Below are positions 4,837-25,434 of a stretch of 32,522 nucleotides of DNA, one piece after another. The stretch covers positions 1-32,522 of IMG/VR virus record IMGVR_UViG_3300028844_002547. One strand, given 5' to 3'. Every line of letters begins with the position of its first letter. The first letter of the stretch is position 1. A model generated the notes under the pieces. That model did no database searches, was not told the DNA's origin, and saw only the letters and a list, made by a program, of their open reading frames with translations. This stretch comes from a virus. Position numbers and translations under genes: made by a program.

Positions 4837-5033
4837 TATTTTTTAGTATGAATACCCATAGGAATTTTAGTAACTTTTATCTCAAGATCTTGTCTAAAAT
4901 CATCGACAGTTGTATCTGTATTTGGATCAGCTACATCTGCATCAAACTCTGCTTTGTTTGCATAAACTTTTCCACTTCTTTTGTGTTTAACAATTTCTTT
5001 TGCTACTGCTGGTATTTTAGGTAAATCAGTCAT
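4836..5033 (-). CDS. Small conserved phage protein of unknown function
   Basis: A 65-residue protein with a basic N-terminal half (KHKRSGKVYANKAEFDADV) and an acidic middle (DPNTDTTVDDF). The phrase GKVYANKAEFDADVADP looks like a small domain I have seen in virion gene clusters of marine phages, but I know no function. It lies between a tiny Lys/Arg-rich gene and the glycosyltransferase pair, with a TAATG junction to the latter. The reading frame is well supported by the tight spacing. Confidence 0.65.
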   Translation of the reverse strand: MTDLPKIPAVAKEIVKHKRSGKVYANKAEFDADVADPNTDTTVDDFRQDLEIKVTKIPMGIHTKK

Positions 5034-5064
5034 AACTTTTTATAATGCTTTTAAAGTTATTTGT

Positions 5065-5202
5065 CTAGCCTTTTCCTTGACCTTTGTATCTACGGGTATT
5101 TTTTTGACGTTTTTCATTTTTATTTAACGATTTTTTATGTTTACGTGGACCTCTTTTCTTAGGCTTATCTCGAACTACAAAGTCTTTAAATTTTTTAGCC
5201 AT
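5065..5202 (-). CDS. Tiny Lys/Arg-rich protein (45 aa)
   Basis: ATG at 5202, TAG at 5065-5067. The product begins MAKKFKDFVVRDKPKKRGPR and stays strongly basic to the end. The start overlaps the stop of the upstream gene by 8 nt. Nearly half the residues are Lys or Arg, which suggests binding to DNA or RNA, perhaps packaged inside the virion. This is inference. I recognise the opening as common in marine phage genomes, without a known function. Confidence 0.68.
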   Translation of the reverse strand: MAKKFKDFVVRDKPKKRGPRKHKKSLNKNEKRQKNTRRYKGQGKG

Positions 5203-5530
5203 TTTCTTGTGATCTATCTATTAAGGCATAACTTACAGCACCTGTAATTTCGTTAGCTGTAGCTGCTTGCATTTCAAGGACATCACTTGCTTCTAAGTTT
5301 AGAGATTCTTTAATTAAATTGTCGGTAGACTTGTTTAAAGAAACATGTCCTATTTGAACACGAGAAGCTCCTGATTTTGTTATAAATAAATCTGTATCTA
5401 CACCACTTGCAGTATCGTGAACTGCTTGTACATTTTTAACAATAATAGTTCCATCTGCAGGACAAGTTAAAACTGTCGTAATATTAGTCGTAGTTAAATC
5501 AAATGTTTCGCTTTTATATCTAATTGTCAT
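5195..5530 (-). CDS. Small beta-rich virion-type protein
   Basis: A 111-residue protein composed of alternating short hydrophobic/Thr strands (TTTNITTVLTCPADGTIIVK, then GVDTDLFITKSG), typical of small phage decoration or tail proteins. No cysteine pairs or catalytic motifs stand out. Its ATG overlaps the stop of the 54-residue gene (ATGA), and its own end overlaps the next tiny basic gene. A structural role is inferred from composition and position between the gp10-like hub and the internal proteins. Confidence 0.65.
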   Translation of the reverse strand: MTIRYKSETFDLTTTNITTVLTCPADGTIIVKNVQAVHDTASGVDTDLFITKSGASRVQIGHVSLNKSTDNLIKESLNLEASDVLEMQAATANEITGAVSYALIDRSQENG

Positions 5531-5691
5531 GACATAAAATAATTAAAGGTGTTTTGTTCATTTTTAATTTCTTCTTGATAGGAAGTATTTAACTTATCTT
5601 TAAGAGTTTGTAAAGATTGTGATACTTGTCTTTGATTGTCTTCAGTATAAACTGGTGTCGGTTCAGGAATTATAATATCTACTCTTGCCAT
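5527..5691 (-). CDS. Small coiled-coil-type protein (54 aa)
   Basis: ATG at 5691 overlaps the stop of the 186-residue gene (TAATG), and the TGA at 5527-5529 overlaps the next ATG. The product starts MARVDIIIPEPTPVYTEDNQ and continues as a charged, Gln/Lys-rich helix (RQVSQSLQTLKDKL). Its opening resembles the 13-residue remnant ORF at 6251-6292 (MARINI...). Function unknown. The perfect stop/start overlaps on both sides make it a confident gene. Confidence 0.7.
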   Translation of the reverse strand: MARVDIIIPEPTPVYTEDNQRQVSQSLQTLKDKLNTSYQEEIKNEQNTFNYFMS

Positions 5692-6251
5692 TATGCTAAA
5701 TCAGCTCCTCCACCAAAACCAGACATTCCTGATCCTCTTGATCCCTTAGATCCATCTGAAGTGTTATTGCCCGGCCCTCCACCTCTATGAATGTCTTGTG
5801 GTGTTGGTTGAATATTCATAATTTTTGGACTTGTTATTGTATTTAAAGTTCCTTGTGGATCTCTCTTAATATCTTTTTCAATAGCTTTTTGAACTCTTCT
5901 GTTTCTTATAATATTTGCAATTCCTCTAGCACCTGCAGGTAATAGTGATCCAACTGTCGTTAGTGCTCCTATTGGATTTGTAAAACCAAAAATGTTTGAC
6001 ACACCTAAAATACTTCCTGTTAAACCCTCAATACCCAGTCTTTCAAAAGCAAGATCTTGCACTTTATTCTTTGCTATGCTTTTCGCCACTTCTTTAAAAT
6101 CAGGTAACCCCCTTGTGTCCTCTCCTGGAGTTATTTGCAAGCCCATAGGTGTTAAGGGTTGATTAACAAAAGAAGGTTGATAATTCTCAAAACCTGGCTG
6201 AGCCTGAATTTGTGCTAATCCTTGTTGAATTTGTGATTCAATTGGGTCCAT
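5691..6251 (-). CDS. Putative internal or membrane-interacting virion protein
   Basis: A 186-residue protein. The N-terminal 70 residues are Gln/Pro-rich, and a Gly/hydrophobic segment follows (LTGSILGVSNIFGFTNPIGA and ALTTVGSLLPAGARGIANII, about 76-114). Then comes a basic helix (RNRRVQKAIEKDIKRD), and a Gly/Ser-rich tail ends it. This layout resembles ejected proteins of short-tailed phages. The ATG overlaps by one base the TAA of the short 6251-6292 ORF, which carries a copy of the hub gene's 3' end. That suggests this gene once directly followed the hub gene. Function inferred only. Confidence 0.65.
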   Translation of the reverse strand: MDPIESQIQQGLAQIQAQPGFENYQPSFVNQPLTPMGLQITPGEDTRGLPDFKEVAKSIAKNKVQDLAFERLGIEGLTGSILGVSNIFGFTNPIGALTTVGSLLPAGARGIANIIRNRRVQKAIEKDIKRDPQGTLNTITSPKIMNIQPTPQDIHRGGGPGNNTSDGSKGSRGSGMSGFGGGADLA

Positions 6252-6292
6252 TATCCTCTCATTCCATCTGGTTGTATATTTATTCTTGCCAT
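6251..6292 (-). pseudogene. Duplicated 3' end of the gp10-like hub gene (13-codon remnant)
   Basis: A 13-codon ORF reads MARINIQPDGMRG and stops in a TAATG overlap with the next gene. The complete hub gene at 6881-9031 ends FRADIQPDGMR. At the DNA level 6257-6277 matches 6884-6904 at 20 of 21 bases. The 176-residue oxygenase gene lies between the two copies. The short ORF is therefore best read as the original 3' end of the hub gene, left behind when a cassette carrying a replacement end was inserted. A translated 13-residue peptide is possible but less likely. Confidence 0.7.
6257..6277. repeat. Direct repeat, downstream copy of hub-gene 3' end
   Basis: These 21 bases equal 6884-6904 except for one base, the third position of a proline codon. 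The copies lie 627 nt apart in the same orientation and bracket an AT-rich 2OG oxygenase gene. Confidence 0.85.
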
Positions 6293-6335
6293 ATTTTATA
6301 ATAACATTTATTATTTTACTATTCCACCCTTTATA

Positions 6336-6866
6336 TTATTTTGATATTTTAAAATTTCCACTAATAATACATCTTTTAGTATCATTATTGTTTTCAACTT
6401 CATGAGGTATAAAAGAATCAAAAAAAACAATTTTATTTTTTTCTGGTTTTATCTTCGTTTCAAAATAAGAACAATAAGGAAATCCTGGATTATAAAAAAT
6501 TGTATTAGCGGATTGTTCTGTACAATCTATGTACCAAATAAAAGAAATATGATCACAATTTTCATGATGTAAATGTATACCATGTCTTGATTCTTTTTCA
6601 TATTTTTGACACCATATATCTATTAATTCTAATTTTTTAAATTTTTTTTGTAAACTTTTTTTTAAAAATTGAACCACCCATTCACTGTATAATTCTTTAA
6701 ATAAATCTTTAAATTCACTATCGTTTTTTTCATCAAGATTGTGAAATGTAGAAAGCATTTGTCCTTTTTTATAATTAATTTTATTAATGAAATTAATTAC
6801 TTGTTCATTAGCCTCTAAATAAGATTCATAAATATTACATGTAATTTGAATTTGTTTAATAAACAT
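6336..6866 (-). CDS. 2OG-Fe(II) oxygenase-like protein (H-x-H type)
   Basis: A 176-residue protein, very Lys/Ile/Asn-rich and more AT-rich than the structural genes. The motif GIHLHHENCDHISFIWYI (96-113) gives candidate metal-binding His98 and His100. KIVFFDSFIPHEVENNNDTK (145-164) gives the distal His155, and the following Arg165 may bind 2-oxoglutarate. This pattern fits the putative 2OG-Fe(II) oxygenase group in which the first acid is replaced by His (2OG-FeII_Oxy_5-like). The substrate could be a phage or host protein, or another molecule; nothing in the sequence decides. It is flanked on both sides by copies of the hub gene's 3' end, which suggests insertion as a cassette. Confidence 0.7.
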   Translation of the reverse strand: MFIKQIQITCNIYESYLEANEQVINFINKINYKKGQMLSTFHNLDEKNDSEFKDLFKELYSEWVVQFLKKSLQKKFKKLELIDIWCQKYEKESRHGIHLHHENCDHISFIWYIDCTEQSANTIFYNPGFPYCSYFETKIKPEKNKIVFFDSFIPHEVENNNDTKRCIISGNFKISK

Positions 6867-6880
6867 TAATATGTATTAGA

Positions 6881-9031
6881 CTATCTCATTCCATCAGGTT
6901 GTATGTCTGCTCTAAAAGTTCCGTATCTCCAGTTTTGATCTGTTGAAGTGTTAGCTATTTTTAAACTAGCAAATCTAGATCTTGCACGTGTATCAACTTT
7001 ATCAGTTGAATTAGTAACTGTAAATGGTCCAAGTGGAGAAGATGTTGAATTGTTAGAAGGATAGTTTCTTAAATTAATTGTTATTTGTGCATCTCCTGTC
7101 AGTAATTTAAAATCTGGAACAAATCTTTTCATACTCATAAACATTTGACCATCTCCTCCTGCTGATAAATCAAAATCACCAGATTGAATAAAAGCTGGTA
7201 TTGCTGTTTTATTACCAACTGAATCTACTTCGTTATTACCAACTTCATGAGCATAATAAGTTGATGCACCATTTTGATTTGTAACTCCTTGTATTGTTGG
7301 AAAAGAAGGAGTACCTGTCGATGAAAATTCTGTTGCATAAGGATTATCATATAATGTAGCATCAAACCAAGTAGTTCTTGAAAGTGATCCAGTCGTCCAA
7401 GTATTTTCTGTGTAGTTATAAGTTACAACTCTATCAATTAATGTTGATCCAGACTTAGGGTAGAACCAACTAATCTCTTCATAAAGATGATTGAGTCCTA
7501 CATAAATTTGTTCTCCATTAGCGTAACTCAAACCTAGATTGTCTCCCTTATCTGTAAATACAAAATCTTCAACTAAACATGGCACTGATTTAACTGTACC
7601 ATCGTATACAAAAAATCCTCCCGCTTGACCCATCCACCAAACAGCTCCGTTTACATATTTAATAGAGTGTTGACCAATAGCTCCACAATTACTTCCAACT
7701 TGTCTTATTGAAAATGTAAATGGAGGACCAACAAACTGCATTACATAAGCCGATGTGTCAGTTAAAATTAAAATATAATCTTTACCTCTTACAGCCCCTA
7801 CTATTTTTGTACCTGAATCTATTCTAAATGTACCAGCAGTATTAACTGAAGTTGGAGCATAATCAGATATGTTTTCTTGATCTGAAAATCTTATAAACAT
7901 TTTATCTTGAGTATTTGAAGTCCCAATTGTAGTTTCTGTTCCAAGTATTACTAAATGTCTATCTCTTTCAGAAACGATAGACATAACAGATTTAGTTGGT
8001 GCTCCACTAACGACAGTTGCTCTTGTGGTTAATGCAGCGGGTGCATTACTTATAGTATCCCACTCGAATGTTTTACCATCTTTTATTGTTGCAATTAATT
8101 TTGATCCAAAATGATCTAAAGACCATGATGCAGACTCTAAAGTTACTCCACCAGTAAGTGAAGCCGATCCCCATCCAAGATAAACTTCAACAGAAGCTCC
8201 GCTCGCATGAGCTGATCTAGTGCCTGCTACAGCTCTAGTAATTCCAGTTAAATCATTTGTAGAAATTCCAGTGTATGAAATAAATTCTGCTCCAACTTTT
8301 ATAGTTCCAGATGTTGGAAAACCAACAACAGAAGATAATGTAATTGAAGTTCCTGATCCTCCAGTCCCAGCAGTGTCATCTTGTAGTAAACCATTTAAAG
8401 TTGAGATAACTCCTGCAGACCCACCCCATCCAGAAGTACCATAACCAAAACCAGCAGTTTGACTTAATGGTCCTACTTTAACATAAGGATTTATTGTTGC
8501 TGCTCCACTTGCTGCAACAGTTGTACCAGCATTAGCCGCCATAGTGATTGTAAATGTATCTTGACTTGGAACTGTCACGACTTCAAAAGTATTTGTAGTA
8601 AAATCTGCAGCCACATAGCCTGCTCCTACTGGAGGTGTAACAGAAGTAAATGTAATTAAATCTCCTGCAGATAATGTGTGAGCAATTTTATTTACAGTGA
8701 CAGTTGGACTTGTGTTAGCTGTTGTAAAGGTTGCTCCAGTTATTGCAGAGTCTAAAGGAGTAATATCGTAGAATGCATTTTCAAAATAAATTATTAAAGC
8801 CTTATTAGTACCTATAGCCGAGTATCTTCTACCATCTAAATCAGCCCAAACAAGTTGATCTCTTGCTGCACCGACTAGTGTATTTGAAGTTATTTGTTCC
8901 CAACCCCCTATTTTTTCTGGAAGACCATATCTAAACCTAACAAAATCTCCATCAGTCCACTGGCCTTCTGCTCCAGTTTCTGTGACTTGTTTGTTAAATC
9001 CAGGTCTTATCTGTACATTTGTTAAAGGCAT
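6881..9031 (-). CDS. Tail hub / packaged-DNA stabilisation protein, P22 gp10-like
   Basis: A 716-residue protein starting MPLTNVQIRPGFNKQVTETG. The N-terminal half has beta-repeat modules, including an inserted Thr/Val-rich segment (about 90-185, AGTTVAASGAATINPYVKVG) and a Gly/Ser-rich region to about 290. Residues about 300-560 carry a propeller-like series including SIVSERDRHLVILGTETT and AVWWMGQAGGFFVYDG. This resembles the P22 gp10 / T7 gp12-type tail tube or hub proteins, which seal the portal after packaging. The stop is followed after 14 nt by the oxygenase gene. The last ten codons recur at 6251-6292. Assignment rests on pattern, size and the neighbouring podovirus module. Confidence 0.78.
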   Translation of the reverse strand: MPLTNVQIRPGFNKQVTETGAEGQWTDGDFVRFRYGLPEKIGGWEQITSNTLVGAARDQLVWADLDGRRYSAIGTNKALIIYFENAFYDITPLDSAITGATFTTANTSPTVTVNKIAHTLSAGDLITFTSVTPPVGAGYVAADFTTNTFEVVTVPSQDTFTITMAANAGTTVAASGAATINPYVKVGPLSQTAGFGYGTSGWGGSAGVISTLNGLLQDDTAGTGGSGTSITLSSVVGFPTSGTIKVGAEFISYTGISTNDLTGITRAVAGTRSAHASGASVEVYLGWGSASLTGGVTLESASWSLDHFGSKLIATIKDGKTFEWDTISNAPAALTTRATVVSGAPTKSVMSIVSERDRHLVILGTETTIGTSNTQDKMFIRFSDQENISDYAPTSVNTAGTFRIDSGTKIVGAVRGKDYILILTDTSAYVMQFVGPPFTFSIRQVGSNCGAIGQHSIKYVNGAVWWMGQAGGFFVYDGTVKSVPCLVEDFVFTDKGDNLGLSYANGEQIYVGLNHLYEEISWFYPKSGSTLIDRVVTYNYTENTWTTGSLSRTTWFDATLYDNPYATEFSSTGTPSFPTIQGVTNQNGASTYYAHEVGNNEVDSVGNKTAIPAFIQSGDFDLSAGGDGQMFMSMKRFVPDFKLLTGDAQITINLRNYPSNNSTSSPLGPFTVTNSTDKVDTRARSRFASLKIANTSTDQNWRYGTFRADIQPDGMR
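6884..6904. repeat. Direct repeat, upstream copy at the true 3' end of the hub gene
   Basis: Encodes IQPDGMR just before the TAG at 6881-6883. It is the partner of 6257-6277 with 20 of 21 identical bases. Confidence 0.85.
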
Positions 9032-9060
9032 AGGGTATTATACCTTATTAAGACACCTTA

Positions 9061-9297
9061 TTAAAGATTGTCATTAGGCTTTTCAATTTTAATTTTTTGG
9101 TTTTTTTTTGATGTTATACTATTTGTTTTTTTATCAAATTTTTTTTGAAACTCAAAAAATAGACCCATAAACAAATTAATAAAATGTTTTAAAAACTCAG
9201 TAGATAATGTTAATTTTTTATGTTTAGAGATAATATCTATTTCTTCTTTAGAAAATATTATTTCTCCAGAACCGTCTTCTTTTTGATTAATTTGCAT
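9061..9297 (-). CDS. Small charged protein in the AT-rich accessory block
   Basis: A 78-residue protein, starting MQINQKEDGSGEIIFSKEEI, then one hydrophobic/aromatic helix (LKHFINLFMGLFFEFQKKF, about 36-54) and a Lys/Asn-rich tail. The start overlaps the stop of the preceding oxygenase gene by 11 nt. I recognise no family. The amphipathic helix could associate with a membrane or a partner. It is the last gene of the accessory block before the hub gene. Confidence 0.6.
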   Translation of the reverse strand: MQINQKEDGSGEIIFSKEEIDIISKHKKLTLSTEFLKHFINLFMGLFFEFQKKFDKKTNSITSKKNQKIKIEKPNDNL

Positions 9298-9844
9298 TTT
9301 GTGGGCAACTCCAAAATTGACGTTTATCCATGTAATAATCTTTGTATTTTCCTTCAGCGTCTACATAATGTAGAAAAGCTTGAAACTGATAATCTCCAAA
9401 AAACTCATTTCTCCAATGCTCAACTTCAGAGCCTAAATAAATAGCGGCATCTCCTTTATTTAAATTTAATTCAACTCCGTCCATAACTATAGGCCATAAT
9501 GTTCCGTCTCCATTAATATTTACTGTAACACTTATTTCACAAGATGGTCTATCAGTATGTTTTTCTAATACAGCAAATTTTGTATAAGTTCTCCAAAATG
9601 AATAAGTAGGTAATAATTTTTTATTAGTTTCTTTTTCAATTAAATGTTTTTTACTTAACATTAACGACTCCATTAATTTGTCTCCATAAAAATAAGTATC
9701 TCCTACATTACTTTGTCTAAAATCAAAACTATCTAAATTAATTCTATGTTTTATTTCACAGTAATGAGACATTAAATTAATTTCATCCATTGATAAAAAA
9801 TTTTTAATTATTTTATATTTAAATTCTTTTCCTATTGTGCCCAT
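9287..9844 (-). CDS. 2OG-Fe(II) oxygenase-like protein (HxD, no clear Arg)
   Basis: A 185-residue protein. KFAVLEKHTDRPSCEISVTV (89-108) gives His96 and Asp98 of the HxD iron triad. NKGDAAIYLGSEVEHWRNEF (129-148) gives the distal His143. The usual 2OG-binding Arg ten residues later is not evident: the expected strand reads GDYQFQAFLHYVD. I recall phage-encoded relatives with this HTDRPSCE...GDA.IY...EHWR layout, so the family call is reasonable. Some members lack a canonical Arg. It overlaps both neighbours by 11-13 nt, which suggests a coupled operon. Substrate unknown. Confidence 0.72.
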   Translation of the reverse strand: MGTIGKEFKYKIIKNFLSMDEINLMSHYCEIKHRINLDSFDFRQSNVGDTYFYGDKLMESLMLSKKHLIEKETNKKLLPTYSFWRTYTKFAVLEKHTDRPSCEISVTVNINGDGTLWPIVMDGVELNLNKGDAAIYLGSEVEHWRNEFFGDYQFQAFLHYVDAEGKYKDYYMDKRQFWSCPQNAN

Positions 9845-10410
9845 GCTACTACAGAATACCTTTCTCCTTTTGTAACTTCTTTGACTGAATGTGGGTATAA
9901 AAAATTACTCGGCCAAACAATTATTCTATTTCTTTTCTTTTGAATCACTGTAACATCATCAGAGTTTGGGTATTTAAAATGTAAATCTCCTCCTTCATAA
10001 TCATCATTAATAAAATAAATACAACTCAAACTTCTATTAGTAACCGCACAATCATCAACATGAAATTTATAATGCCCACTTTTTACATATTTTAAAATTT
10101 GAATATCATTAATTAAAAATTTTTCATCTAATTTAAAAAGACGAGCATAAGCATCTACATAATTTTTAAAATTAAAATTTAAAAAATTTGCCCAATGTAC
10201 TTTTGTCATACTTGTTTCATTTAAAGCAGACAAAGTGATGCTCAAAGTTTTTCTTATTTTTTCTTCTACAATTGATTTATTATTTCCAATAACTCCTGCT
10301 TTTTCAAATTTAAAAGTTTTTACTAGTTTTGTAAAATTGTCTAGAACATTTTCATTTAAAACATTATCGAATTGTACAATGTATTTATGTAAATCGTTTT
10401 TTACTTCCAT
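9832..10410 (-). CDS. Prolyl 4-hydroxylase-like 2OG-Fe(II) oxygenase
   Basis: 192 residues from the ATG at 10410, chosen over an in-frame TTG at 10425 because GGAAG lies about 8 nt upstream of the ATG. The C-terminal double-stranded beta-helix core is complete: SGHYKFHVDD holds H117 and D119, SCIYFINDDYEGGDLHF is the classic P4H strand, NFLYPHSVKEV holds H174, and KGERYSVVAWAQ holds the 2OG-binding R184 and the usual 'SVVAW' ending. All active-site residues are present, so it is probably catalytic. It overlaps the DUF-like gene upstream by 10 nt and another oxygenase downstream by 13 nt. Related proteins hydroxylate proline or other side chains, or nucleic acids. The target here is unknown. 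Confidence 0.82.
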   Translation of the reverse strand: MEVKNDLHKYIVQFDNVLNENVLDNFTKLVKTFKFEKAGVIGNNKSIVEEKIRKTLSITLSALNETSMTKVHWANFLNFNFKNYVDAYARLFKLDEKFLINDIQILKYVKSGHYKFHVDDCAVTNRSLSCIYFINDDYEGGDLHFKYPNSDDVTVIQKKRNRIIVWPSNFLYPHSVKEVTKGERYSVVAWAQ

Positions 10411-11141
10411 GATTTTTTCTTCCAAAAATGTTCTTTGTAATTATTTATAAATAGTTTTTTTAAAAAAAACATATTTGTTTTCTTTGTTTCTTTACTGATA
10501 GGATCAATTTTCATTTTCCACTTATCTCTTTTAAATGGTATCACTTGACAATATGGAGTGCCTCTTTTTATTGTAGTTTTTAATGTAGGATATTTATCAC
10601 CATTCACAATAATTGGGAAATTAATTTCTATATTAAATGTATCTGTGTCAACAATACCTGAAATTATAGAAAATCGATCATCACTATTATTTAATGGTGA
10701 AACAAAAAGAGTTGAATATCCAGGCGGTGTTTTTATAAACCATGGATTATTAATTTTATGAATAGGTAGATTTTTATTTTTTTCAAGTAAAGGACTTTCC
10801 TTAACTTGTGTTGTTGCATGAAAAGACCCAAACTTATTATAATTTAAATTTATTTCATCTGCTAAATCAGTGTTTATTTGAGAAGATTCAAATCCAGTGT
10901 TTTTTACACCTATTGTGTCTACATTATGTTCAATATAATAATCAACAGGCATTTTTAAAATATAACCAGCTGTTAGTGTATCTAAAAAAGGCATACATCC
11001 TTTAACAGTTTCGTTATTTTTTTTATGCTCTAATTTTTTAAACCAAGCAGGGATATTAAATACGCTTGGAATTGGAAAAATGTCTTTATTATTATCTATA
11101 TATTTTTTACTTGCTCTAAAAGTAATAGTTTTGTCAAACAT
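10401..11141 (-). CDS. Conserved viral protein of unknown function (DUF6065-like)
   Basis: A 246-residue protein. Recognisable blocks are FPIPSVFNIPAWFKKL (about 21-36), GCMPFLDTLTAGYILKMPVD (48-67), NNPWFIKTPPGYSTLFVSPL (131-150), ISGIVDTDTFNIEINFPIIV (160-179) and GTPYCQVIPFKRDKWKM (194-210). These match a family I know from T4-like cyanophages and other marine viruses. I believe it is the DUF6065 group but could not verify the number. Its biochemical role is unknown to me. It opens the AT-rich accessory block with two oxygenases, and its stop overlaps the next start by 10 nt. Confidence 0.68.
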   Translation of the reverse strand: MFDKTITFRASKKYIDNNKDIFPIPSVFNIPAWFKKLEHKKNNETVKGCMPFLDTLTAGYILKMPVDYYIEHNVDTIGVKNTGFESSQINTDLADEINLNYNKFGSFHATTQVKESPLLEKNKNLPIHKINNPWFIKTPPGYSTLFVSPLNNSDDRFSIISGIVDTDTFNIEINFPIIVNGDKYPTLKTTIKRGTPYCQVIPFKRDKWKMKIDPISKETKKTNMFFLKKLFINNYKEHFWKKKSWK

Positions 11142-11158
11142 TATTACTTATAAAATAA

Positions 11159-11593
11159 TTAAGGAATTTGTAAAGTATTAATATAATCTATTGAATTATC
11201 TTCGCAATATTTTTCCCATGTAGTATTTAGGGGATAATTTATTGATGAGTAATCGTATGTATTTAAAGTTGTGTAATAAGAGTTTATTGTTGAATAAAGA
11301 CTTTTAGATTCATTAACTCTTTGAATAAAATTTTTAAAAAGTGGTTTAATGTTCTCAATGTATTGTTTAAGTTCATCTTCATTTTCATAACTAATGGACA
11401 TATCTGAATCTGTTATAGTTACACTACCCTCTGAAATAGAAGCCCAAGCTGAATCATTTTTTAATTTAGAAAAATCATCATCACTTATATCGATAGCCTC
11501 GAATGGTGGAAAAGAAACAGCTATTTCATTTTTTTCAACATCGTTTGAAGCAATTTTATGAATCTGATTATTAATTGTAATTATATAAGCCAT
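11159..11593 (-). CDS. Fibre-companion protein, possible tail-fibre assembly factor
   Basis: A 144-residue acidic protein starting MAYIITINNQIHKIASND, with an N-terminal beta segment and, from about residue 73, a helical Asn/Tyr/Ser-rich half. Its ATG is 3 nt after the stop of the glycine-rich fibre gene. Small acidic proteins directly after fibre genes are often chaperones for the fibre, so that is my best guess. No specific family motif is recognised. It could instead be a modular accessory gene, since its base composition is closer to the AT-rich block that follows. Confidence 0.6.
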   Translation of the reverse strand: MAYIITINNQIHKIASNDVEKNEIAVSFPPFEAIDISDDDFSKLKNDSAWASISEGSVTITDSDMSISYENEDELKQYIENIKPLFKNFIQRVNESKSLYSTINSYYTTLNTYDYSSINYPLNTTWEKYCEDNSIDYINTLQIP

Positions 11594-11595
11594 TC

Positions 11596-12852
11596 CTATT
11601 GTCCTCCATCATCAAAAAATTGTAAAAACCCAGCTGAACCTGCCTTACCTGCTCTAGTAGTTGCGTTAGGACTTGATGAGCCACCTCCTCCTCCACCAGC
11701 TACAGATATTCCTAAGTAACCAGAAGGTAAAACGAAATCAGCATTTGAGGCTGGTGAGTTCGGCACGTTTGGTGCAGCCACATTTCCATTTCCTGTACCT
11801 AAGCCTGCTGCTCCGCCTGACGCTGTGAATAAAGATCCTACGTTAGTATCTCCACCTGCACCTCCGTTTACACCATTGTTTTGATTACCAGAAGGTCCAC
11901 CTGCACCTCCTCCTCCAATATTGTAGGCATAGGTTGTACTTGCTGCAAGAGTTCCTGAATAAAACGCAAACTCAGCACTCCCGCCTGAACTACCACTAGC
12001 TGCTGGATTTCTTACAGTTCCTGATCCACCACCTCCTCCTCCTGCCGAAGCATAAGCATAAAATTTACTTGCATTTGCTGGAGTAGCGACGTTTGTTGAA
12101 ACTGGTCCGCTTGAAAGAATTCTTGGAAAATATGATCCGTCCCCACCTGCTCCTGATGAGGCTGCTGTAAGTCTACCTTGAGCATCTACAGTAATGTTAG
12201 CAGTTGTGTAAGACCCAGCACTTACTGCTGTGTCTGCTAATTTAGCAGCCGATACTGCATCATCTTCAATCATATCTGTAGCTACTTGAACTTCTCCTAC
12301 TGCTCCAGCAGAAGCTGCTCCAATTACTCTGTTAGCAGTTGTAGTGTCTTGAATTTTTGCATAAGTAACTGCATCATCTGCAATTTGTGCAGTTGCGATT
12401 GTTCCTGTAATATTAGCAGCAGCAACTGTGCCACCTAAAGTGTCTAATGAAATTTCGTTTAAATTTGTACCATCTGTATATGCAGCATAAATTTTTGCAG
12501 CATCTAATGTAAATCCAGTTCCTGAAGCAGTTTTAATTGTTAAATTAGTTGGTCCGCTAACAGCAGAACAATCAAATATATAAAATTTTTCTATTGTATC
12601 TGGAACAGTAACAGTCGATGCTCCAGTAAGTGAGCCAGTAAATTTAATGACCATATTTCTTGCAGTTGAAATAGTTTTATCAGTCATTGCAAGAGCAAGG
12701 TTTCCACCATCATTAAGTGCTAATGATTCAAAACCAGCTACTGCTTGTTGAATTAAGTTTAAGTTATTATTTGTATTATCTCCCCATGTACCAGCGTTTT
12801 CGCCAGTGACCATAAGTTCAAGTTTTAAATCTGTTGAATATGCTGATGTCAT
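11596..12852 (-). CDS. Tail fibre / adhesin with glycine-rich C-terminal domain
   Basis: A 418-residue protein. The N-terminus (STDLKLELMVTGENAGTWGD) is the pattern I associate with virion-attachment domains of marine phage fibres. The middle has ANITGTIATAQIADDAVTYA-type repeats typical of fibre shafts. From about residue 265 come polyglycine runs: AYASAGGGGGGSGTV, YNIGGGGAGGPSGNQNNGVN, ISVAGGGGGGSSSPN. This composition recalls the polyglycine type II sandwich of phage adhesins such as the gp38-type receptor-binding proteins. The long Gly stretches probably shape the receptor tip. It ends with FLQFFDDGGQ. Host-receptor binding is inferred. Confidence 0.8.
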   Translation of the reverse strand: MTSAYSTDLKLELMVTGENAGTWGDNTNNNLNLIQQAVAGFESLALNDGGNLALAMTDKTISTARNMVIKFTGSLTGASTVTVPDTIEKFYIFDCSAVSGPTNLTIKTASGTGFTLDAAKIYAAYTDGTNLNEISLDTLGGTVAAANITGTIATAQIADDAVTYAKIQDTTTANRVIGAASAGAVGEVQVATDMIEDDAVSAAKLADTAVSAGSYTTANITVDAQGRLTAASSGAGGDGSYFPRILSSGPVSTNVATPANASKFYAYASAGGGGGGSGTVRNPAASGSSGGSAEFAFYSGTLAASTTYAYNIGGGGAGGPSGNQNNGVNGGAGGDTNVGSLFTASGGAAGLGTGNGNVAAPNVPNSPASNADFVLPSGYLGISVAGGGGGGSSSPNATTRAGKAGSAGFLQFFDDGGQ

Positions 12853-12889
12853 AAATTTTTATCTCCTAAATATTATAATTTTACCTTAA

Positions 12890-14017
12890 TCAAGCTGCTA
12901 AATCAACCTCTGACCAAATATTATTTACTCCAGGATCAATTTCTTGCCACGAAGTAATACTAACTGTTCCAAGACTAGCTGTCAATTGTATACCAGTTAC
13001 ATCAATTCCAGCTGTCCCAGTAACAGTAACTGCTCCCATTTGTGGAGCTATTGATAAACCAGAAACACCTATCATTTGTCCAGGTATTTCTGAAGGAGTA
13101 CCTAACGATGCAGTGATTTGTTGTCCAGTTACTGGTTCATTAGTTGATTGAATTAATGTAAAAGTACCCAAAGACATAGTTGCTTGAATACCAGTTACAT
13201 CTACTGGTGTTTTTAAGCCCGCTATAGTATTACCGATTGATCCAGTTAATTGAGAACCAGTGACATCAACAGTTGCAAGTCCTTCTATAGTAGGAGTTGT
13301 TGTATTAATATCTAATTGATCTTCTGAAGCAAGTACAAATATATCTTGGTCAATTTGAATTGAGAATGATGGATTTGCATAAGTAGAGTTTATTTGTAAA
13401 CCAGAAACTGAAACATCTACATCTGTAAATGCATTTGCAGCTGGGAAATTTATTGTAGAAGTTATTTCTTGTCCAACAGCAATAGCTGAATAAGCTCCAC
13501 CCCAAGCTAAATTACCCCATGTTCTTCTACCCCAACCAATACCAGTTAATAAAGAATCATCGACTGTAGCAGATCCTATTGATGTAGCTGCTTGTAGATT
13601 TGTAGAAGTAAGTTCTACTCCAATACCAACTACTTCTTCTCCACCAGTAATTGCTATTTGTTGTCCAGTGACTGATTGAACTATTGATGTTCCGCCTAAA
13701 GCACTTGGTTCTCCAAATGCCATCTGTCCTAAATTAGTTACAGATACAGAAACATCAACAATTATATTTTCTTGAACTGTTCCTATAGATGAAGTTAGTT
13801 GTGATCCAACGGCAACTGGTTGAGAACCAGAAAGATCACCCCATTCATTTTCACTCCAAGTGTCTCCACCCCAACCAACTTGAAGTTCTCCATCAGCAAC
13901 TATTGTTCCAATAGAAAAAGTTGCTGAAAGACTGGTGCTACTTAAGGATACATTTTGATCACCGAGTGTACCCCAGTTTTGGAAACCCCATGTTTGTGAA
14001 CCCCAAGTAGCAGCCAT
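12890..14017 (-). CDS. Repeat-rich structural protein (W-G and V-T-G repeats)
   Basis: A 375-residue protein built of imperfect repeats. Three Trp/Gly clusters (TWGSQTWGFQNWGTLGD at the start, VGWGGDTWSENEWGDLSG near 48, GWGRRTWGNLAWGGAY near 160) are interleaved with about eight copies of a V-x-V-T-G-x-Q-L-x-x-S-L/I-G-T unit, such as IDVTGIQLTASLGTVSI near the end. There is no enzymatic motif and no signal peptide. It directly precedes the fibre gene and follows a small virion protein. I infer an extended beta-rich tail appendage or decoration protein. The repeat phase of about 25-35 residues is unusually regular in the C-terminal half. Confidence 0.72.
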   Translation of the reverse strand: MAATWGSQTWGFQNWGTLGDQNVSLSSTSLSATFSIGTIVADGELQVGWGGDTWSENEWGDLSGSQPVAVGSQLTSSIGTVQENIIVDVSVSVTNLGQMAFGEPSALGGTSIVQSVTGQQIAITGGEEVVGIGVELTSTNLQAATSIGSATVDDSLLTGIGWGRRTWGNLAWGGAYSAIAVGQEITSTINFPAANAFTDVDVSVSGLQINSTYANPSFSIQIDQDIFVLASEDQLDINTTTPTIEGLATVDVTGSQLTGSIGNTIAGLKTPVDVTGIQATMSLGTFTLIQSTNEPVTGQQITASLGTPSEIPGQMIGVSGLSIAPQMGAVTVTGTAGIDVTGIQLTASLGTVSITSWQEIDPGVNNIWSEVDLAA

Positions 14018-14031
14018 ATCATTTTATATCC

Positions 14032-14475
14032 TTAAGCTAATCTCAAAATAGCAGCAGAAGTTGTAAATGCAGGGAATTGAATAGTAAAAGTTCCCGATGT
14101 TGCAGTTTTATCACTTCCAAAATCTAACACAGCAACTGCATCAGTAGTATTTGAACCACCATCAGTAGTTGTGTTGTAAATCAAAGCTCCTCTTGCAGTA
14201 AGAGTTACTCCTACAAAAGATAGATCAGCAAAATCAGTAATAGCTATTGCTGAAGATACTTTAACACCTTGGTTAACTAAAGTTCCACCGCCTGCTGTGT
14301 ATCCAGATGATGATACTTCATTTCCTGTTGTATAGTTTTCAGTTGAAGCACCTAAAGTTGCTTGTGATGTAAACATTGCTAATTTATATGTGTCCGATGA
14401 TGTATCGAAATCGTGTTTTCCTTGAAGTAATTCTTTTTTAAAAGAATTACAAATTGCGTTTGTTGTTATTGCCAT
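14032..14475 (-). CDS. Small conserved virion protein
   Basis: A 147-residue protein starting MAITTNAICNSFKKELLQG, then beta-rich with Thr/Ser/Gly. KLAMFTSQATLGASTENYTT, NEVSSSGYTAGGGTLVNQGV and TFTIQFPAFTTSAAILRLA are blocks I recognise from virion gene clusters of many environmental phages. Its function is not established as far as I know; a neck or tail component fits its place between the connector-like and fibre-type genes. The reading frame is closed by neighbours at 11-14 nt. Confidence 0.7.
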   Translation of the reverse strand: MAITTNAICNSFKKELLQGKHDFDTSSDTYKLAMFTSQATLGASTENYTTGNEVSSSGYTAGGGTLVNQGVKVSSAIAITDFADLSFVGVTLTARGALIYNTTTDGGSNTTDAVAVLDFGSDKTATSGTFTIQFPAFTTSAAILRLA

Positions 14476-14486
14476 AATTATTCTCC

Positions 14487-15152
14487 TTAATATGTTGTGT
14501 TTGGAGTAGGTGATGGAATTTTAACTCTTGGAACTCCGTCATCGTACTCCCCTCGTCTTCTTCTACCCATTTGTTGTAGGGCAAAATTCTGTACCTCTTC
14601 ATTGTACTTCTTTTCGTATAGATTGTACATATCCATAGGACCTTTTAAATATCTAAAGGCTTCTGTTAAAACACCATGTAATAGCATTGATTCTTGATAA
14701 GTAGAAATAAAAGTATTATTGCTTGATGTAAATTGTGGTGCATCTTTAATATAGTTGATTTGAACTGTTAATGCAGATGATGGAACAGGTGCAACTAAAA
14801 TAGTAAAATCATCCCAATTAGCATAATATTTAGGAGTTCCTGTAGCTCCACTGCCGTTGTATTCAGAAATAAAACTAGTATCTCTTTTTTCTAAAAAAGT
14901 TCTATTATCAGAACCGTCTATTACTTGAACAGATCTTAAAACTAATGAATCTGCAGGAATTGTTACATATCTATTATTTGCTGTAAAGTTTGAAGTAGAA
15001 TATTTTCTTAAATCATCGTAATCTACCTTACCCGCTATATCTAACTCAACAGATCTTATAAAATCTTGAATTATTGCATCTGATAATACATTGTTATCTA
15101 CTTCTGTGTAATTTCTTACCTGTGTTAAAAAATTTGAATATGTAATAGCCAT
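14487..15152 (-). CDS. Head-tail connector / adaptor-like protein
   Basis: A 221-residue protein. The N-terminus (MAITYSNFLTQVRNYTEVDN) with DAIIQDFIRSVELDIAGKVD gives the helical opening expected of gp4/gp11-like adaptor proteins. The middle is a beta domain (NNRYVTIPADSLVLRSVQVI, NWDDFTILVAPVPSSALTVQ). The C-terminal helix (LLHGVLTEAFRYLKGPMDMY) and a basic tail (QMGRRRRGEYDDGVPRVKIP) follow. This fits a ring protein that binds the portal or tail. It overlaps by one base the stop/start junction of the 132-residue gene. Connector identity is inferred from fold pattern and the podovirus order. Confidence 0.72.
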   Translation of the reverse strand: MAITYSNFLTQVRNYTEVDNNVLSDAIIQDFIRSVELDIAGKVDYDDLRKYSTSNFTANNRYVTIPADSLVLRSVQVIDGSDNRTFLEKRDTSFISEYNGSGATGTPKYYANWDDFTILVAPVPSSALTVQINYIKDAPQFTSSNNTFISTYQESMLLHGVLTEAFRYLKGPMDMYNLYEKKYNEEVQNFALQQMGRRRRGEYDDGVPRVKIPSPTPNTTY

Positions 15153-15550
15153 TATGTTATTGATACCTCCACTTTACCTAAAACTATATTAACACGTCTT
15201 CTTCTGTTTTGTAATGATGGATCTGCTGGAATCATAGCTGAAGTTCCTTGGTTATCAAATGCAAAATCACCAGGAAGAGTAAGATTAGCAACACCTACTG
15301 AAGCACCGCCTGAATCTGCTAAAACACCACTTCTATTTTTAGGTTGTTGAAATTTTTGTGGTCTTGTATTTTGTAAAGCAATTGCATCAGCTGTGGAATG
15401 TCTTCTTCTAATTTGAGGATGCTTTGGTTCAAACTCAGAATAATGAACTAAAGATCCGTTCCATTCTTTTACCATTTCAGTATATGGAAATGCCATTCCC
15501 GATCTATCTGATATTGCTTGACTTCTTTTACCTGTTGCCCATTTTGCCAT
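15152..15550 (-). CDS. Small head-tail region protein
   Basis: A 132-residue protein starting MAKWATGKRSQAISDRSGMA, with KEWNGSLVHYSEFEPKHPQI, then a proline- and arginine-rich part (TRPQKFQQPKNRSGVLADSG) and a basic end (NRRRRVNIVLGKVEVSIT). The first 70 residues are a block that recurs between the two connector-type genes of marine podovirus-like genomes, as I recall. There is a 1-nt overlap with the connector gene downstream and 2 nt to the upstream one. A joining role between connector rings is a guess. Confidence 0.66.
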   Translation of the reverse strand: MAKWATGKRSQAISDRSGMAFPYTEMVKEWNGSLVHYSEFEPKHPQIRRRHSTADAIALQNTRPQKFQQPKNRSGVLADSGGASVGVANLTLPGDFAFDNQGTSAMIPADPSLQNRRRRVNIVLGKVEVSIT

Positions 15551-15552
15551 AA

Positions 15553-16248
15553 TTATATTCCATTAGGATAAAAAGATTGAGGAGTAATGTATGTTGAAGT
15601 TCTTTGACCATCTTCATCAAGAGCTCTTTTAAGCTCGTCTTCATAAACTAATTTATTTTGTTGTACAAGTTGTGGTGCTTTTTTCATAGCAATGTAATAA
15701 GCTAAACCCGCACACATACACGGTAAAAATCTGTAAGCAACATCGGCATCGTTTGTGTATGCACCAGCATCTTCAATTCTTTTTATCACATAATATTTTA
15801 ATGTGTTGTAAGTATTTAAATTAGGAGCTTGGTATAAATAAATTTTAGGTGTAGTAAGCCTTTCCACATAATATTGTGAAGGTTGTCCTAATGCTAATTT
15901 ATTAGGTAATGCTGCATATGCAGATCTATCAATTTTTGTTAAAGAAACATCCTGCGTGTTAATTCCATCTGCTGCTGCTGCAGTTGAAGATACAAAAGCT
16001 TCAAGCACATCATTAACATCAGCTGCAACTGAATACTCAGCTTGGCCACTTACCAAAGATGCTTCGTGTAGATCTACTTTCCATAAATGAATACCTCTGT
16101 TACCCCATTCAGCAAACAAAAGATCTAAACTTCTTCTAGCAGATCTTAGATCATATCCCGCATTTGTTGTTAAACCACATCTTTCATAACCCTCATCTAT
16201 AATTTCATCGATATTTAAGTTAAATGATGTTGTCCCTGAAGTTGCCAT
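15553..16248 (-). CDS. Head-to-tail adaptor / tail accessory factor-like protein
   Basis: A 231-residue protein. The motif DEIIDEGYERCGLTTNAGYD followed by LRSARRSLDLLFAEWGNRGI (35-54) is a recognisable adaptor signature. Later parts are EYSVAADVNDVLEAFV, YVERLTTPKIYLYQAP and a C-terminal helix (FLPCMCAGLAYYIAMKKAPQ). It matches the P22 gp4 / T7 gp11 type of head-to-tail adaptor. AAGGA lies 5-6 nt before the ATG. It is the first of the connector trio. Confidence in the adaptor role is moderate to high because portal, hub and this gene form a coherent set. Confidence 0.76.
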   Translation of the reverse strand: MATSGTTSFNLNIDEIIDEGYERCGLTTNAGYDLRSARRSLDLLFAEWGNRGIHLWKVDLHEASLVSGQAEYSVAADVNDVLEAFVSSTAAAADGINTQDVSLTKIDRSAYAALPNKLALGQPSQYYVERLTTPKIYLYQAPNLNTYNTLKYYVIKRIEDAGAYTNDADVAYRFLPCMCAGLAYYIAMKKAPQLVQQNKLVYEDELKRALDEDGQRTSTYITPQSFYPNGI

Positions 16249-16298
16249 TTAAATCCTTTTTACGGTTGTACAATTTCTTGGATTGTATCATTTTTTGA

Positions 16299-16430
16299 CT
16301 AAATTTTGAAGACCTTAGGCTTTTTGCTACGTAATTTCGCGATGACACGTTGTTTTTTCTTTTTTTCATCTCTTGCACCTCTAAGTTTACCTTCAACTTG
16401 TTTTGATATCTGCCCACGTGATATTGCCAT
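16299..16430 (-). CDS. Tiny basic protein (43 aa)
   Basis: ATG at 16430, TAG at 16299-16301. The product starts MAISRGQISKQVEGKLRGAR and continues as a Lys/Arg-rich helix. Its first eight residues resemble the start of the gene just upstream (MAITRGKI). The start lies inside the stop of that gene (TAATG). About 40 percent of residues are basic. The longer 65-residue ORF in another frame over this place is a shadow: it lacks a ribosome-binding site and overlaps the adaptor gene. Function unknown; packaged nucleic-acid binding is possible. Confidence 0.7.
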   Translation of the reverse strand: MAISRGQISKQVEGKLRGARDEKKKKQRVIAKLRSKKPKVFKI

Positions 16431-16606
16431 TATATTAAATCCCTAGCCTTTCCTATTATTGGTTTATCTTTAGTTTTTGGTATTTTATTTAAAATTCGTC
16501 CATACTTAGGCCACCCAAACTTACTAGGACTTTCGCCAACATATCTCCAACGAATAACTCCTGTGTTTGGATTTCTTTCGTATATTTTTCCTCTTGTAAT
16601 AGCCAT
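16430..16606 (-). CDS. Small basic protein (58 aa) sharing its C-terminus with the endolysin gene
   Basis: ATG at 16606, TAA at 16430-16432 overlapping the next ATG. The product starts MAITRGKIYERNPNTGVIRW and ends KPIIGKARDLI. The M15 endolysin ends LPIIGKAVDLV, and the last 33 bases of the two genes agree at 25 positions. The start of the gene also resembles the next one (MAI-S/T-RG). It looks like a mosaic of the two neighbours' ends. A 2OG oxygenase gene lies between this gene and the endolysin gene. Function unknown. Confidence 0.7.
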   Translation of the reverse strand: MAITRGKIYERNPNTGVIRWRYVGESPSKFGWPKYGRILNKIPKTKDKPIIGKARDLI

Positions 16607-16611
16607 AATAT

Positions 16612-17076
16612 TTAATTATTTATTTTATACCATCCAGCAATAACAAATCTAGTGTTAGAGATAACTTTTTTTACACCATGCTTATAGTAATTACCATCAA
16701 AGAATATAGACCTTTTTTTTAAAGGCTTAAATATTAAATCATTTTCATAGTAAGTATTACCACCTTCATAATTATCATTTAAATATGTAATAGAAGATAA
16801 ACTTGTTTTACTACTTGCAGTATCAAGATGAAGATCTTGATAACTTCCTTTTGGCCATTTTACTATTTCATACCAATCAATCTTTGAATTATTAATACTA
16901 AGAGCTTGATTGTTAAGTTTATTTTTTAAAAAATTTAAACGATCATCTTGTTGATCAAGAGGTAGAGGAAAAACATCACGGAAAGTCTTTGCATAATGTT
17001 CATTATTTTTATAAAAATTAATTAAATAATTACACTCTTCATCAGTTAAAAAATTATCAACAATTTGAGTTATCAT
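16612..17076 (-). CDS. 2OG-Fe(II) oxygenase-like protein (P4H type)
   Basis: A 154-residue protein. The core residues are all visible: YQDLHLDTASSK has H83 and D85, SSITYLNDNYEGGNTYY is the characteristic P4H strand, DGNYYKHGVKKV has H133, and SNTRFVIAGWYKI has the 2OG-binding R143. It is compact but complete for a single catalytic domain. It is AT-rich (Lys/Asn/Ile). It starts 8 nt after the endolysin stop and ends 5 nt before the 58-residue gene, whose 3' end copies the endolysin 3' end. Substrate unknown. It is distinct from the 192-residue relative at 9832-10410 apart from the shared core. Confidence 0.8.
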   Translation of the reverse strand: MITQIVDNFLTDEECNYLINFYKNNEHYAKTFRDVFPLPLDQQDDRLNFLKNKLNNQALSINNSKIDWYEIVKWPKGSYQDLHLDTASSKTSLSSITYLNDNYEGGNTYYENDLIFKPLKKRSIFFDGNYYKHGVKKVISNTRFVIAGWYKINN

Positions 17077-17084
17077 TTTATTTT

Positions 17085-17567
17085 TTAAACTAAATCTACC
17101 GCTTTTCCTATAATTGGTAAATATTTTGTTTTTTTAGAATCTTGGTCTCTGTATGCTCTCATGTATTGACCTCTTGGTTGAAAAGGCACCCAACTTGCAT
17201 GTATCCATCCGCTGTTAGGTTCGCCAGGCGTGTAGTATTCGAGGATCAATTGATCTGTCCCACAGTTCATTTTTACCCAATCAGCAACTTCTGCATTGTC
17301 TACTCCTAAAACTTCAAAATCACAAGCCTCAGCTTTTGAGTGCTGACTGGTCAAACTTGATCCTATAGCAACACATAACTCAGGTGAACGAAACCCACTG
17401 GTCACCTTGACTCTACCAAAATGATCACGGACTGGTTGTAATACATTTTCACATAGTGCTTTTAATTTTTCTACTTGATCAGAATTAGGATTATTATCAA
17501 TTCCCTTACGTATTGCTGTATCTGATTTAATTAATTCTTGAAGTGTAAAATTACGACTTAGATTCAT
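17085..17567 (-). CDS. Peptidase M15-type endolysin
   Basis: A 160-residue protein with the M15 zinc-peptidase signature. VTSGFRSPELCVAIGS (55-70) is the lead-in, SQHSKAEACDFEV (74-86) supplies zinc ligands H76 and D83, and GWIHASW (120-126) supplies H123. These match D-alanyl-D-alanine-type carboxypeptidases or endopeptidases that cut peptidoglycan stem peptides. There is no signal peptide, so export would rely on a holin or an upstream membrane protein. The C-terminus (PIIGKAVDLV) recurs in the 58-residue gene downstream of the inserted oxygenase gene. It follows the small membrane proteins of the lysis-type cluster, as expected for an endolysin. Confidence 0.84.
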   Translation of the reverse strand: MNLSRNFTLQELIKSDTAIRKGIDNNPNSDQVEKLKALCENVLQPVRDHFGRVKVTSGFRSPELCVAIGSSLTSQHSKAEACDFEVLGVDNAEVADWVKMNCGTDQLILEYYTPGEPNSGWIHASWVPFQPRGQYMRAYRDQDSKKTKYLPIIGKAVDLV

Positions 17568-17575
17568 AAAAACTC

Positions 17576-17788
17576 CTATTCTAATATTAACTTTTTTATA
17601 GAGAAAGATCCATCTATATTTGTCTCAAGTTCTGCAGAACCAGTATAACATTTATAAGATACACTTTCTGAATATTGTCTTTCCGCCTGACGCTTACCAC
17701 GTAAACACATAGCCATCGATTCTTGAATACGTGCCTCATTAATACTTCCATTAACAAACATAAGCAAAGCTACCACAGACTCTATCAT
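17576..17788 (-). CDS. Small secreted or membrane-anchored protein in the lysis cluster
   Basis: A 70-residue protein starting MIESVVALLMFVNGSINEAR, a short hydrophobic N-terminus (4-13) that may be a weak signal or anchor. The rest is polar with two Cys (28 and 47) and ends ELETNIDGSFSIKKLILE. Its ATG overlaps the stop of the 54-residue gene (ATGA), and the endolysin starts 9 nt downstream. A lysis accessory role is inferred from position. The family is not recognised. Confidence 0.6.
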   Translation of the reverse strand: MIESVVALLMFVNGSINEARIQESMAMCLRGKRQAERQYSESVSYKCYTGSAELETNIDGSFSIKKLILE

Positions 17789-17949
17789 AATATTTTACCT
17801 TTGTTGGTTCCTTGCTTGATAACATATTTTTGTGTACCATTTTTGCCAGTTTCAACTTCCTTTTTTAAATTTTTTATAAAGCTCATTTGTTTAGCTTTCT
17901 TTTCCATGTCTTCCATGTATTGTATAATTTTTCTAGTTACTCGTTCCAT
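17785..17949 (-). CDS. Small Lys-rich helical protein (54 aa)
   Basis: ATG at 17949, TGA at 17785-17787. The product starts MERVTRKIIQYMEDMEKKAK and continues KQMSFIKNLKKEVETGK, a charged coiled-coil-like helix, then a Lys/Gly/Thr-rich tail. It overlaps the 90-residue gene by 17 nt and the next ATG by 4 nt. Such tight overlaps favour a real gene. Function unknown; it belongs to the lysis-type cluster by position. Confidence 0.65.
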   Translation of the reverse strand: MERVTRKIIQYMEDMEKKAKQMSFIKNLKKEVETGKNGTQKYVIKQGTNKGKIL

Positions 17950-18205
17950 TTTTATATACTATCTCTCTGTTGGCATCTTTTAATTCTTCTACATCTACTA
18001 ATAATTTATTAATCTGACCTTCCATAAATTCTATTTTTAATTTATTACTCATATTCATTTCAATATTTTCAGCTATATTTAGACGTTCTACAATCTGAAA
18101 GTAACCCATGGTGCCAAGTGCTACGATAATTATTAATGAAACTACCGTCTTCATAGGCATTTGCACAGCTGCTTCTTCTCCGATATGTAATGGTTTATTG
18201 CTCAT
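17933..18205 (-). CDS. Single-pass membrane protein with coiled coil, i-spanin-like
   Basis: A 90-residue protein. A polar 19-residue N-terminus precedes one transmembrane segment (VVSLIIIVALGTMGYFQIVE, 21-40). A periplasmic-type charged helix follows (KLKIEFMEGQINKLLVDVEE, about 54-73). An uncleaved N-terminal anchor plus coiled coil just upstream of the endolysin recalls inner-membrane spanins, but no lipoprotein partner (lipobox Cys) is seen nearby. It overlaps the upstream gene by 11 nt. The spanin idea is inference. Confidence 0.62.
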   Translation of the reverse strand: MSNKPLHIGEEAAVQMPMKTVVSLIIIVALGTMGYFQIVERLNIAENIEMNMSNKLKIEFMEGQINKLLVDVEELKDANREIVYKNGTSN

Positions 18206-25250: not shown

Positions 25251-25434
25251 CTTCATACTCCGTTGTTGTCAGCAGGTCTTTAAGATCCTGTTGCAGATCT
25301 TCTAAAGATCTGATTTGACCCCTAACATATTGTAGTTTCTCCATGGTGTCAACACCATATATAGCGTGATCTCGAAGTCGTTGAAGATTCTTTTTTACTT
25401 TTCTCTGTACTAATGAAATTGTATCTATGTCCAT
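25216..25434 (-). CDS. Small helical protein (72 aa)
   Basis: The start is ATG 25434 in a TAATG overlap with the methyltransferase-like gene, preferred to a TTG at 25452. The product starts MDIDTISLVQRKVKKNLQRL, with a second helix YVRGQIRSLEDLQQDLKDLL and an acidic tail. It reads as a two-helix coiled coil. It overlaps the GroES-like start by 35 nt. Function unknown; possibly a head-completion factor by context. Confidence 0.65.
   Translation of the reverse strand: MDIDTISLVQRKVKKNLQRLRDHAIYGVDTMEKLQYVRGQIRSLEDLQQDLKDLLTTTEYEDEQVHGDTETD

Follow-up and report, generated by a model that had tools for sequence, protein, structure and literature searches.

Two adjoining genes in the virus fragment IMGVR_UViG_3300028844_002547 (32,522 bp, called the window here) may, as a tentative reading, encode a paired prolyl-hydroxylase-like set, P3 and P2, devoted to the glycine-rich tail fibre whose gene lies upstream of theirs. 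The window is a fragment of an HTVC023P-like pelagiphage. Its stretch 5000-18000 had a single DNA match in 50,697 phage records, HTVC023P, with 77% identity over 9% of the query, and the order of the glycosyltransferase, oxygenase and fibre genes is similar in this Pelagibacter phage and in the window. An earlier note on this DNA had described four genes, here P1, P2, P3 and P5, as 2-oxoglutarate (2OG)-Fe(II) oxygenase-like. All four open reading frames (ORFs) exist (Table 1), on the minus strand like every other gene of interest, and the description holds for P1, P3 and P5 by Pfam and for P2 by a confident predicted double-stranded beta helix. What is new here, as judged against the open PMC library, is the overlap of P3 and P2, or their fusion in some cyanophages, inside a conserved, fibre-linked gene set.

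The search for neighbours in other marine phages that the note had proposed recovered this set, which comprises the fibre, C144, D4 as an optional member, P3, P2 and S78. Searching IMG/VR with P3 yielded 72 loci. The order C144-D4-P3-P2-S78 recurs on one strand with a glycine-rich fibre before C144, and the same gene order was obtained in searches seeded by D4 or by P2. For counting, profiles of P1, P2, P3 and P5 were built from the proteins of the window together with the first 86 loci. Of 86 sequences, the window, its pieces and named phages included, 82 matched the home-made profile of P2 and 84 that of P3. The D4-seeded counts refer to 79 loci among the matches listed, with the window-like contig L086 excluded; the loci returned represent the nearest relatives, with some redundancy among them, and those short of DNA on the needed side were dropped. 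P3 came next after D4 in all 72 loci with room (50/50 non-redundant), P2 directly followed P3 in 64 of 71 (45/49 non-redundant), and S78 followed at a distance of at most 1.5 kb in 52 of 53 (40/41). On the other side, C144 preceded D4 in 75 of 77 loci (52/54), and a glycine-rich ORF preceded C144 in 65 of 69 (42/46). In the P2-seeded search (76 of 80 loci, again among the matches listed), an oxygenase gene was directly upstream of P2 or fused to it in 62 of 68. The P3-P2 overlap is 13 bp in the window, and it is also 13 bp in 55 of 64 listed loci. Further, P2-P3 fusions are present in ACG-2014f, S-T4 and S-SCSM2R, and the family PHROG 3531 consists of two parts, the first half matching P2 and the second half P3. 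It is on adjacency and fusion that the pairing of the two proteins is based. Many sets that keep C144, P3, P2 and S78 are devoid of D4. In one locus (L095:2094-5981) the fibre and C144 point the other way from D4-P3-P2-S78, as though a recombination of two units had not parted them.

Table 1. Coordinates of the fibre-linked genes and of the other oxygenase genes in the window
Feature	Coordinates	Strand	Match or remark
P1, 2OG-FeII_Oxy_5 / PHROG 81 oxygenase	6336..6866	-	PF13759 28.1 bits, cut-off 27
S78, small protein ending the set	9061..9297	-	overlaps the end of P2
P2, PHROG 2954 protein	9287..9844	-	PHROG label 'ferrochelatase', 4e-45; 185 aa
P3, 2OG-Fe(II) oxygenase	9832..10410	-	PF13640 (2OG-FeII_Oxy_3) 62.2 bits, cut-off 27
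D4, DUF6065-like	10401..11141	-	PF19541 4.7e-4 (under cut-off); PHROG 7084 1.3e-46
C144, small and rapidly diverging protein, always adjacent to the fibre	11159..11593	-	conserved position
Tail fibre, 418 aa, glycine-rich C-terminal domain	11596..12852	-	PHROG 31104 2.5e-30
P5, 2OG-FeII_Oxy_3 oxygenase	16612..17076	-	PF13640 38.7 bits

The position of oxygenase genes relative to fibres was compared among the matches listed, to which the following counts apply. Loci short of DNA downstream were dropped here too. With at least 4 kb available, a same-strand 2OG gene followed at most 4 kb after the fibre for 30 of the 33 fibres carrying GNTPPVSPPQGN and for 16 of the 36 control fibres, which had been picked by an N-terminal motif (Fisher p 3.9e-5). 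The non-redundant recount at this distance gave 29/32 motif loci versus 15/29 control loci, and the contrast was weaker at 2 kb (39/73 versus 15/54). For the controls, 112 of 120 stretches were new, the other 8 duplicated earlier loci and were excluded, and 108 of the 112 had a control ORF. Portal loci of the close relatives of the window had any 2OG gene in 5 of 80 cases, and in 3 of the 26 with 4 kb downstream. All PF13640 and PHROG 81 matches of HTVC023P, HTVC033P, HTVC027P and 023Pt_psg01 are at the fibre region, and CRP-901, with a fibre that by eye does not look glycine-rich, had no PF13640 or PHROG 81 match. The comparison of motif fibres, control fibres and portals indicates that 2OG genes belong to the fibre locus, and more so for fibres with the Pro motif. 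The note had placed the four genes inside a run of structural genes; such genes are concentrated at the locus of the tail fibre and not spread over the structural genes as a whole. A virion substrate, also proposed earlier, is favoured by the position of P3 and P2 in a conserved set directly behind the glycine-rich fibre. The four oxygenases need not act together, since P5 adjoins an M15-peptidase/endolysin gene (17085-17567) and P1 sits behind the gene for a 716-aa virion protein. P1 and P5 are looser neighbours of the P3-P2 set from the same superfamily.

The fibre of the window matches PF21722 (Gly_rich_2) over residues 253-408 with 22.3 bits, under the cut-off of 24.3, and its residues 1-205 are 61% identical to HTVC023P gp69, annotated as 'putative tail protein'. 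The glycine-rich genes upstream of the HTVC023P array carry GNTPPVSPPQG at four places, and motifs of this type are found in three copies in HTVC033P and at least once in 023Pt_psg01. The glycine-rich fibre genes are gp59-62 in HTVC023P and gp62 and gp64 in HTVC033P. A motif scan returned at least 120 loci. In 151 distinct contexts among the matches listed, the flanking position -1 is glycine in all 151, position +12 in 148 of them and position +13 in 139. A search of the open PMC library did not find the motif string. Tips of the window type were analysed as 111 non-redundant sequences of 160; in these, X-Pro-Gly is enriched over shuffles (APG 94 versus a mean of 48.3, NPG 82 versus 28.5), Pro-Pro is depleted (40 versus 100.1) and one Pro column is conserved in 88 of the 111.

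The active sites of P1, P3 and P5 were analysed by comparison with their relatives, across which the iron triad that had been noted earlier is conserved: H117xD119...H174 in P3, H83xD85...H133 in P5 and H98xH100...H155 in P1, which has HxH where the others have HxD. Comparison of the P1 and P3 profiles (probability 97.3) aligned HxH on HxD and H155 on H174. Residues of P3 are counted from its ATG; an alternative TTG start at 10425 would add 5 to each number. The 2OG-binding residue, which had been said to differ among the four proteins, is arginine in three of them: the candidate R184 is invariant in the aligned relatives of P3, P5 carries R143 at the corresponding place, and P1 carries R165, with Arg there in most of its aligned relatives. 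Only P2 clearly departs, as described below. P1 exceeds the PF13759 cut-off by about 1 bit only, and its score against TIGR02466 (34.4 bits) is under the cut-off of 62.5. Among PDB sequences, 36 match P3 at E <= 0.1, and every one bears the name of a prolyl hydroxylase or an Egl nine homologue, the best being prolyl 3-hydroxylase 1 (2.3e-6). P1, P3 and P5 also match PHROG 274/2297, labelled 'DNA endonuclease V' or 'DNA endonuclease', where Pfam gives 2OG oxygenase; the best PHROG of P5 is one labelled 'DNA endonuclease', at odds with Pfam. Judged from these family matches, the endonuclease labels of PHROG 274 and 2297 look wrong.

P2 had no Pfam family at E <= 1, and no NCBIfam name or PDB sequence match was found for it. 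Of the four proteins, it was P2 to which the structural check suggested in the note was applied: its AlphaFold2 model, built from 40 sequences, has a pLDDT of 94.6 and a pTM of 0.90 and displays the double-stranded beta helix. The top Foldseek match is the Pseudomonas putida prolyl-4-hydroxylase (P4H) 4j25 (E 5.5e-8), followed by Dictyostelium PHD; the P. putida enzyme recurs among the first rows, once in complex with EF-Tu, and lower among the 50 matches listed are human PHD2 and 5c5t, the collagen prolyl hydroxylase of a Chlorella virus. VIA-align gave Z 16.3 for the epimerase SnoN (rmsd 3.2, 174 residues) and Z 15.9 for PHD2 (2.8, 166 residues), scores that count as a tie by its own rule. 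The triad H96, D98 and H143 (HxD...H) is invariant in 24 and in 40 aligned sequences. In the model, a strand ends at H96 and another starts at H143, and prolyl hydroxylases place their iron histidines at a strand end and a strand start in the same way. Between +9 and +12 from H143 the aligned relatives conserve neither Arg nor Lys, and an invariant Q155 is found there instead; because the canonical 2OG Arg/Lys is missing, P2 is described here as an oxygenase-fold protein. A bacterial relative of P2 matches PF13532 at 2.7e-5, under the cut-off. Relatives are present on bacterial contigs (Mycobacterium, Lysobacterales; L489, L491, L495-L497), and in L496 the gene adjoins one for a protein with Sel1 repeats and a 2OG oxygenase part, which may be the cellular counterpart of the pair P2-P3.

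These results bear on the name of the P2 family. As a ferrochelatase, P2 was rejected: it has no ferrochelatase match in Pfam or among PDB sequences, and the confident beta-helix model has oxygenase-type Foldseek rows. The 50 VIA-align rows listed included no ferrochelatase either, which by itself proves nothing. HemH-type ferrochelatases have about 300 aa, and P2 is short by comparison. The label of PHROG 2954 is very probably wrong. This calls into question published claims of pelagiphage ferrochelatases. Passages of PMC9599517 claim ferrochelatase genes in the HTVC023P group, always with an adjoining oxygenase gene, together with eight distinct 2OG genes, and passages of PMC11561400 treat PHROG 2954 as a ferrochelatase and as a seasonally enriched potential auxiliary metabolic gene. 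The record of 023Pt_psg01 carries the annotation 'putative ferrochelatase / putative Fe(II) dependent oxygenate superfamily protein', a double label indicating that doubt had already been voiced.

In the mechanism proposed for the P3-P2 set, the fibre would be made first, and P3, which has the full complement of Fe and 2OG residues, would hydroxylate the glycine-rich tip before assembly, most likely at prolines. P2 would act as a second oxygenase that anchors its cosubstrate differently, or else as a partner that holds the substrate. Hydroxylation of the tip would tune its folding or receptor binding, and P1 and P5 would have accessory roles, each on a target of its own. We infer the substrate from gene order, and the residue from the substrate. 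A wider claim, that the hydroxylase pair of P3 and the misnamed P2 is widespread in marine phages and matures the fibre tip by a collagen-like modification at prolines often within GNTPPVSPPQGN, is possible and is put forward with more doubt. If true, a receptor-binding protein of a bacteriophage would be modified in the manner of collagen.

Several observations weigh against a fibre-directed prolyl hydroxylation. P2 is devoid of the canonical 2OG residue, and comparison of the P2 and P3 profiles gave no significant match (probability about 3), the weak A1 alignment of the two setting HxD on HxD. Distant P2-P3 pairs are frequently without a glycine-rich neighbour, 2OG genes are scattered genome-wide in large phages, and fibre loci may be hot-spots for cargo, given the control fibres with 2OG genes among the matches listed (16/36). 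With regard to the residue, TPPVSPPQG occurs in 0 of the 111 non-redundant window-type tips, the fibre of the window itself has neither this motif nor Pro-Gly, and the enrichment of X-Pro-Gly was judged against composition shuffles only. The conserved Pro motif of fibre tips may be structural, and X-Pro-Gly as a putative target in window-type fibres is weakened by its absence from the tip in the window. Finally, the dUTPase-like fold predicted for D4 would be unexplained by fibre chemistry and points away from pure protein chemistry.

The alternative that survives best, rather unlikely in our view, is that the target of the oxygenases is a host protein, modified at a late stage of infection, and that the fibre locus merely gathers cargo genes that move along. 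By analogy, P. putida P4H acts on EF-Tu, the very complex found among the first Foldseek rows of P2; the 2OG neighbours of control fibres, the scattered genes of large phages and the bacterial P2 relatives outside a phage context also fit this explanation. It accounts less well for the fixed order and overlap behind fibre genes across diverged relatives, for the closer association with fibres that carry the Pro motif and for the few such genes near the portal gene.

Action of the set on nucleotides or DNA, with D4 as a dUTPase-type enzyme and the oxygenases making a modified base, is improbable. It would be suggested by the D4 model, whose fold is predicted to be dUTPase-like (pLDDT 81.1; VIA-align Z 10.8, rmsd 2.3, 119/246 residues versus 2y8c_B, with a Foldseek E of only 1.4e-3), by halovirus relatives of D4 (L242, L243) that stand beside thymidylate synthase in HSTV-2 and ribonucleotide reductase in HF1, and by the DNA hypermodification genes that passages of PMC9599517 report in this phage group. 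Against this, D4 is missing from many of the sets, the PDB sequence matches of P3 are prolyl hydroxylases, the TET/JBP family appeared only sub-threshold, in one P2-P3 fusion (L504), and the set is positioned behind the fibre. Most improbable is that P2 is a true ferrochelatase that feeds the metabolism of heme or iron, with the 2OG genes as metabolic helpers (iron or 2-oxoglutarate drawdown), against which stand the missing Pfam and PDB matches, the confident beta-helix model, to which the 50 Foldseek rows listed match structures of oxygenase type, and the short length of the protein. The label of PHROG 2954 would favour it, as would passages that treat both as co-occurring auxiliary metabolic genes (PMC9599517, PMC11561400) or propose modulation of 2-oxoglutarate (PMC3037559).

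Among the remaining genes, C144 could be assigned to no PHROG family and exceeded no Pfam cut-off; in 23 relatives only M1 is invariant and three residues are nearly so, and a role as fibre chaperone is a guess. Two tandem glycosyltransferase-like genes (3036-3920 and 3901-4836) are located near the fibre region, and given their presence it is conceivable that a virion protein is hydroxylated and then glycosylated. A Methyltransf_24-type methyltransferase (25434-26006; 34.8 bits, cut-off 26.3) is encoded amid structural genes.

Four such genes are an ordinary number for one phage, contrary to the rarity that the note had supposed, and their abundance has already been published. Annotated tandem 2OG arrays are present in HTVC008M, Syn9, Mosig and S-CREM1, where genes 72-80 include eight annotated 2OG-family genes and one JmjC gene, and HTVC023P has several such genes. 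Passages of the published accounts give ten 2OG genes for S-CREM1 (PMC9964418), 24 for S-SCSM1 (PMC9602691) and numerous ones in 14 of 16 cyanophages (PMC3037559), and mention one in HTVC027P (PMC12753301). According to further passages, 2OG proteins of marine phages resemble human EGLN3 (PMC12774648), and the use of viral prolyl 4-hydroxylases 'remains cryptic' (PMC9301287); here the fibre-linked set offers a concrete candidate substrate.

The arrays of Syn9, S-CREM1, HTVC008M and Mosig share with the window tandem 2OG genes and a P2 relative, and Syn9 and S-CREM1 also a distant D4 relative; they differ in having more genes and in not always being at the fibre. Tryptophan halogenase genes occur near the arrays of Syn9, S-CREM1 and HTVC008M (L080, L083, L079). 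The HTVC023P-type pelagiphages (HTVC023P, HTVC033P and 023Pt_psg01) have in common with the window multiple 2OG genes beside a PHROG-2954-type gene, all behind glycine-rich tail genes, whereas the window-type set adds C144, D4, S78 and another fibre tip. The published reading for that group, as worded in passages of PMC9599517, is a true ferrochelatase and auxiliary metabolism, and differs from the one given here. The likeness to prolyl hydroxylases (EGLN1/PHD2, P. putida P4H and prolyl 3-hydroxylase 1) is in sequence for P3 and in predicted fold for P2; in contrast to them, P2 is without the 2OG arginine, and the identity of P3 and P2 to these enzymes is low. A prolyl hydroxylase is likewise virus-encoded in the case of vCPH of Chlorella virus PBCV-1, for which Eriksson et al. 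1999 is cited in PMC9301287 and whose structure 5c5t is matched by the P2 model. vCPH belongs to a eukaryotic virus, whereas the substrate proposed here is a phage fibre without collagen repeats.

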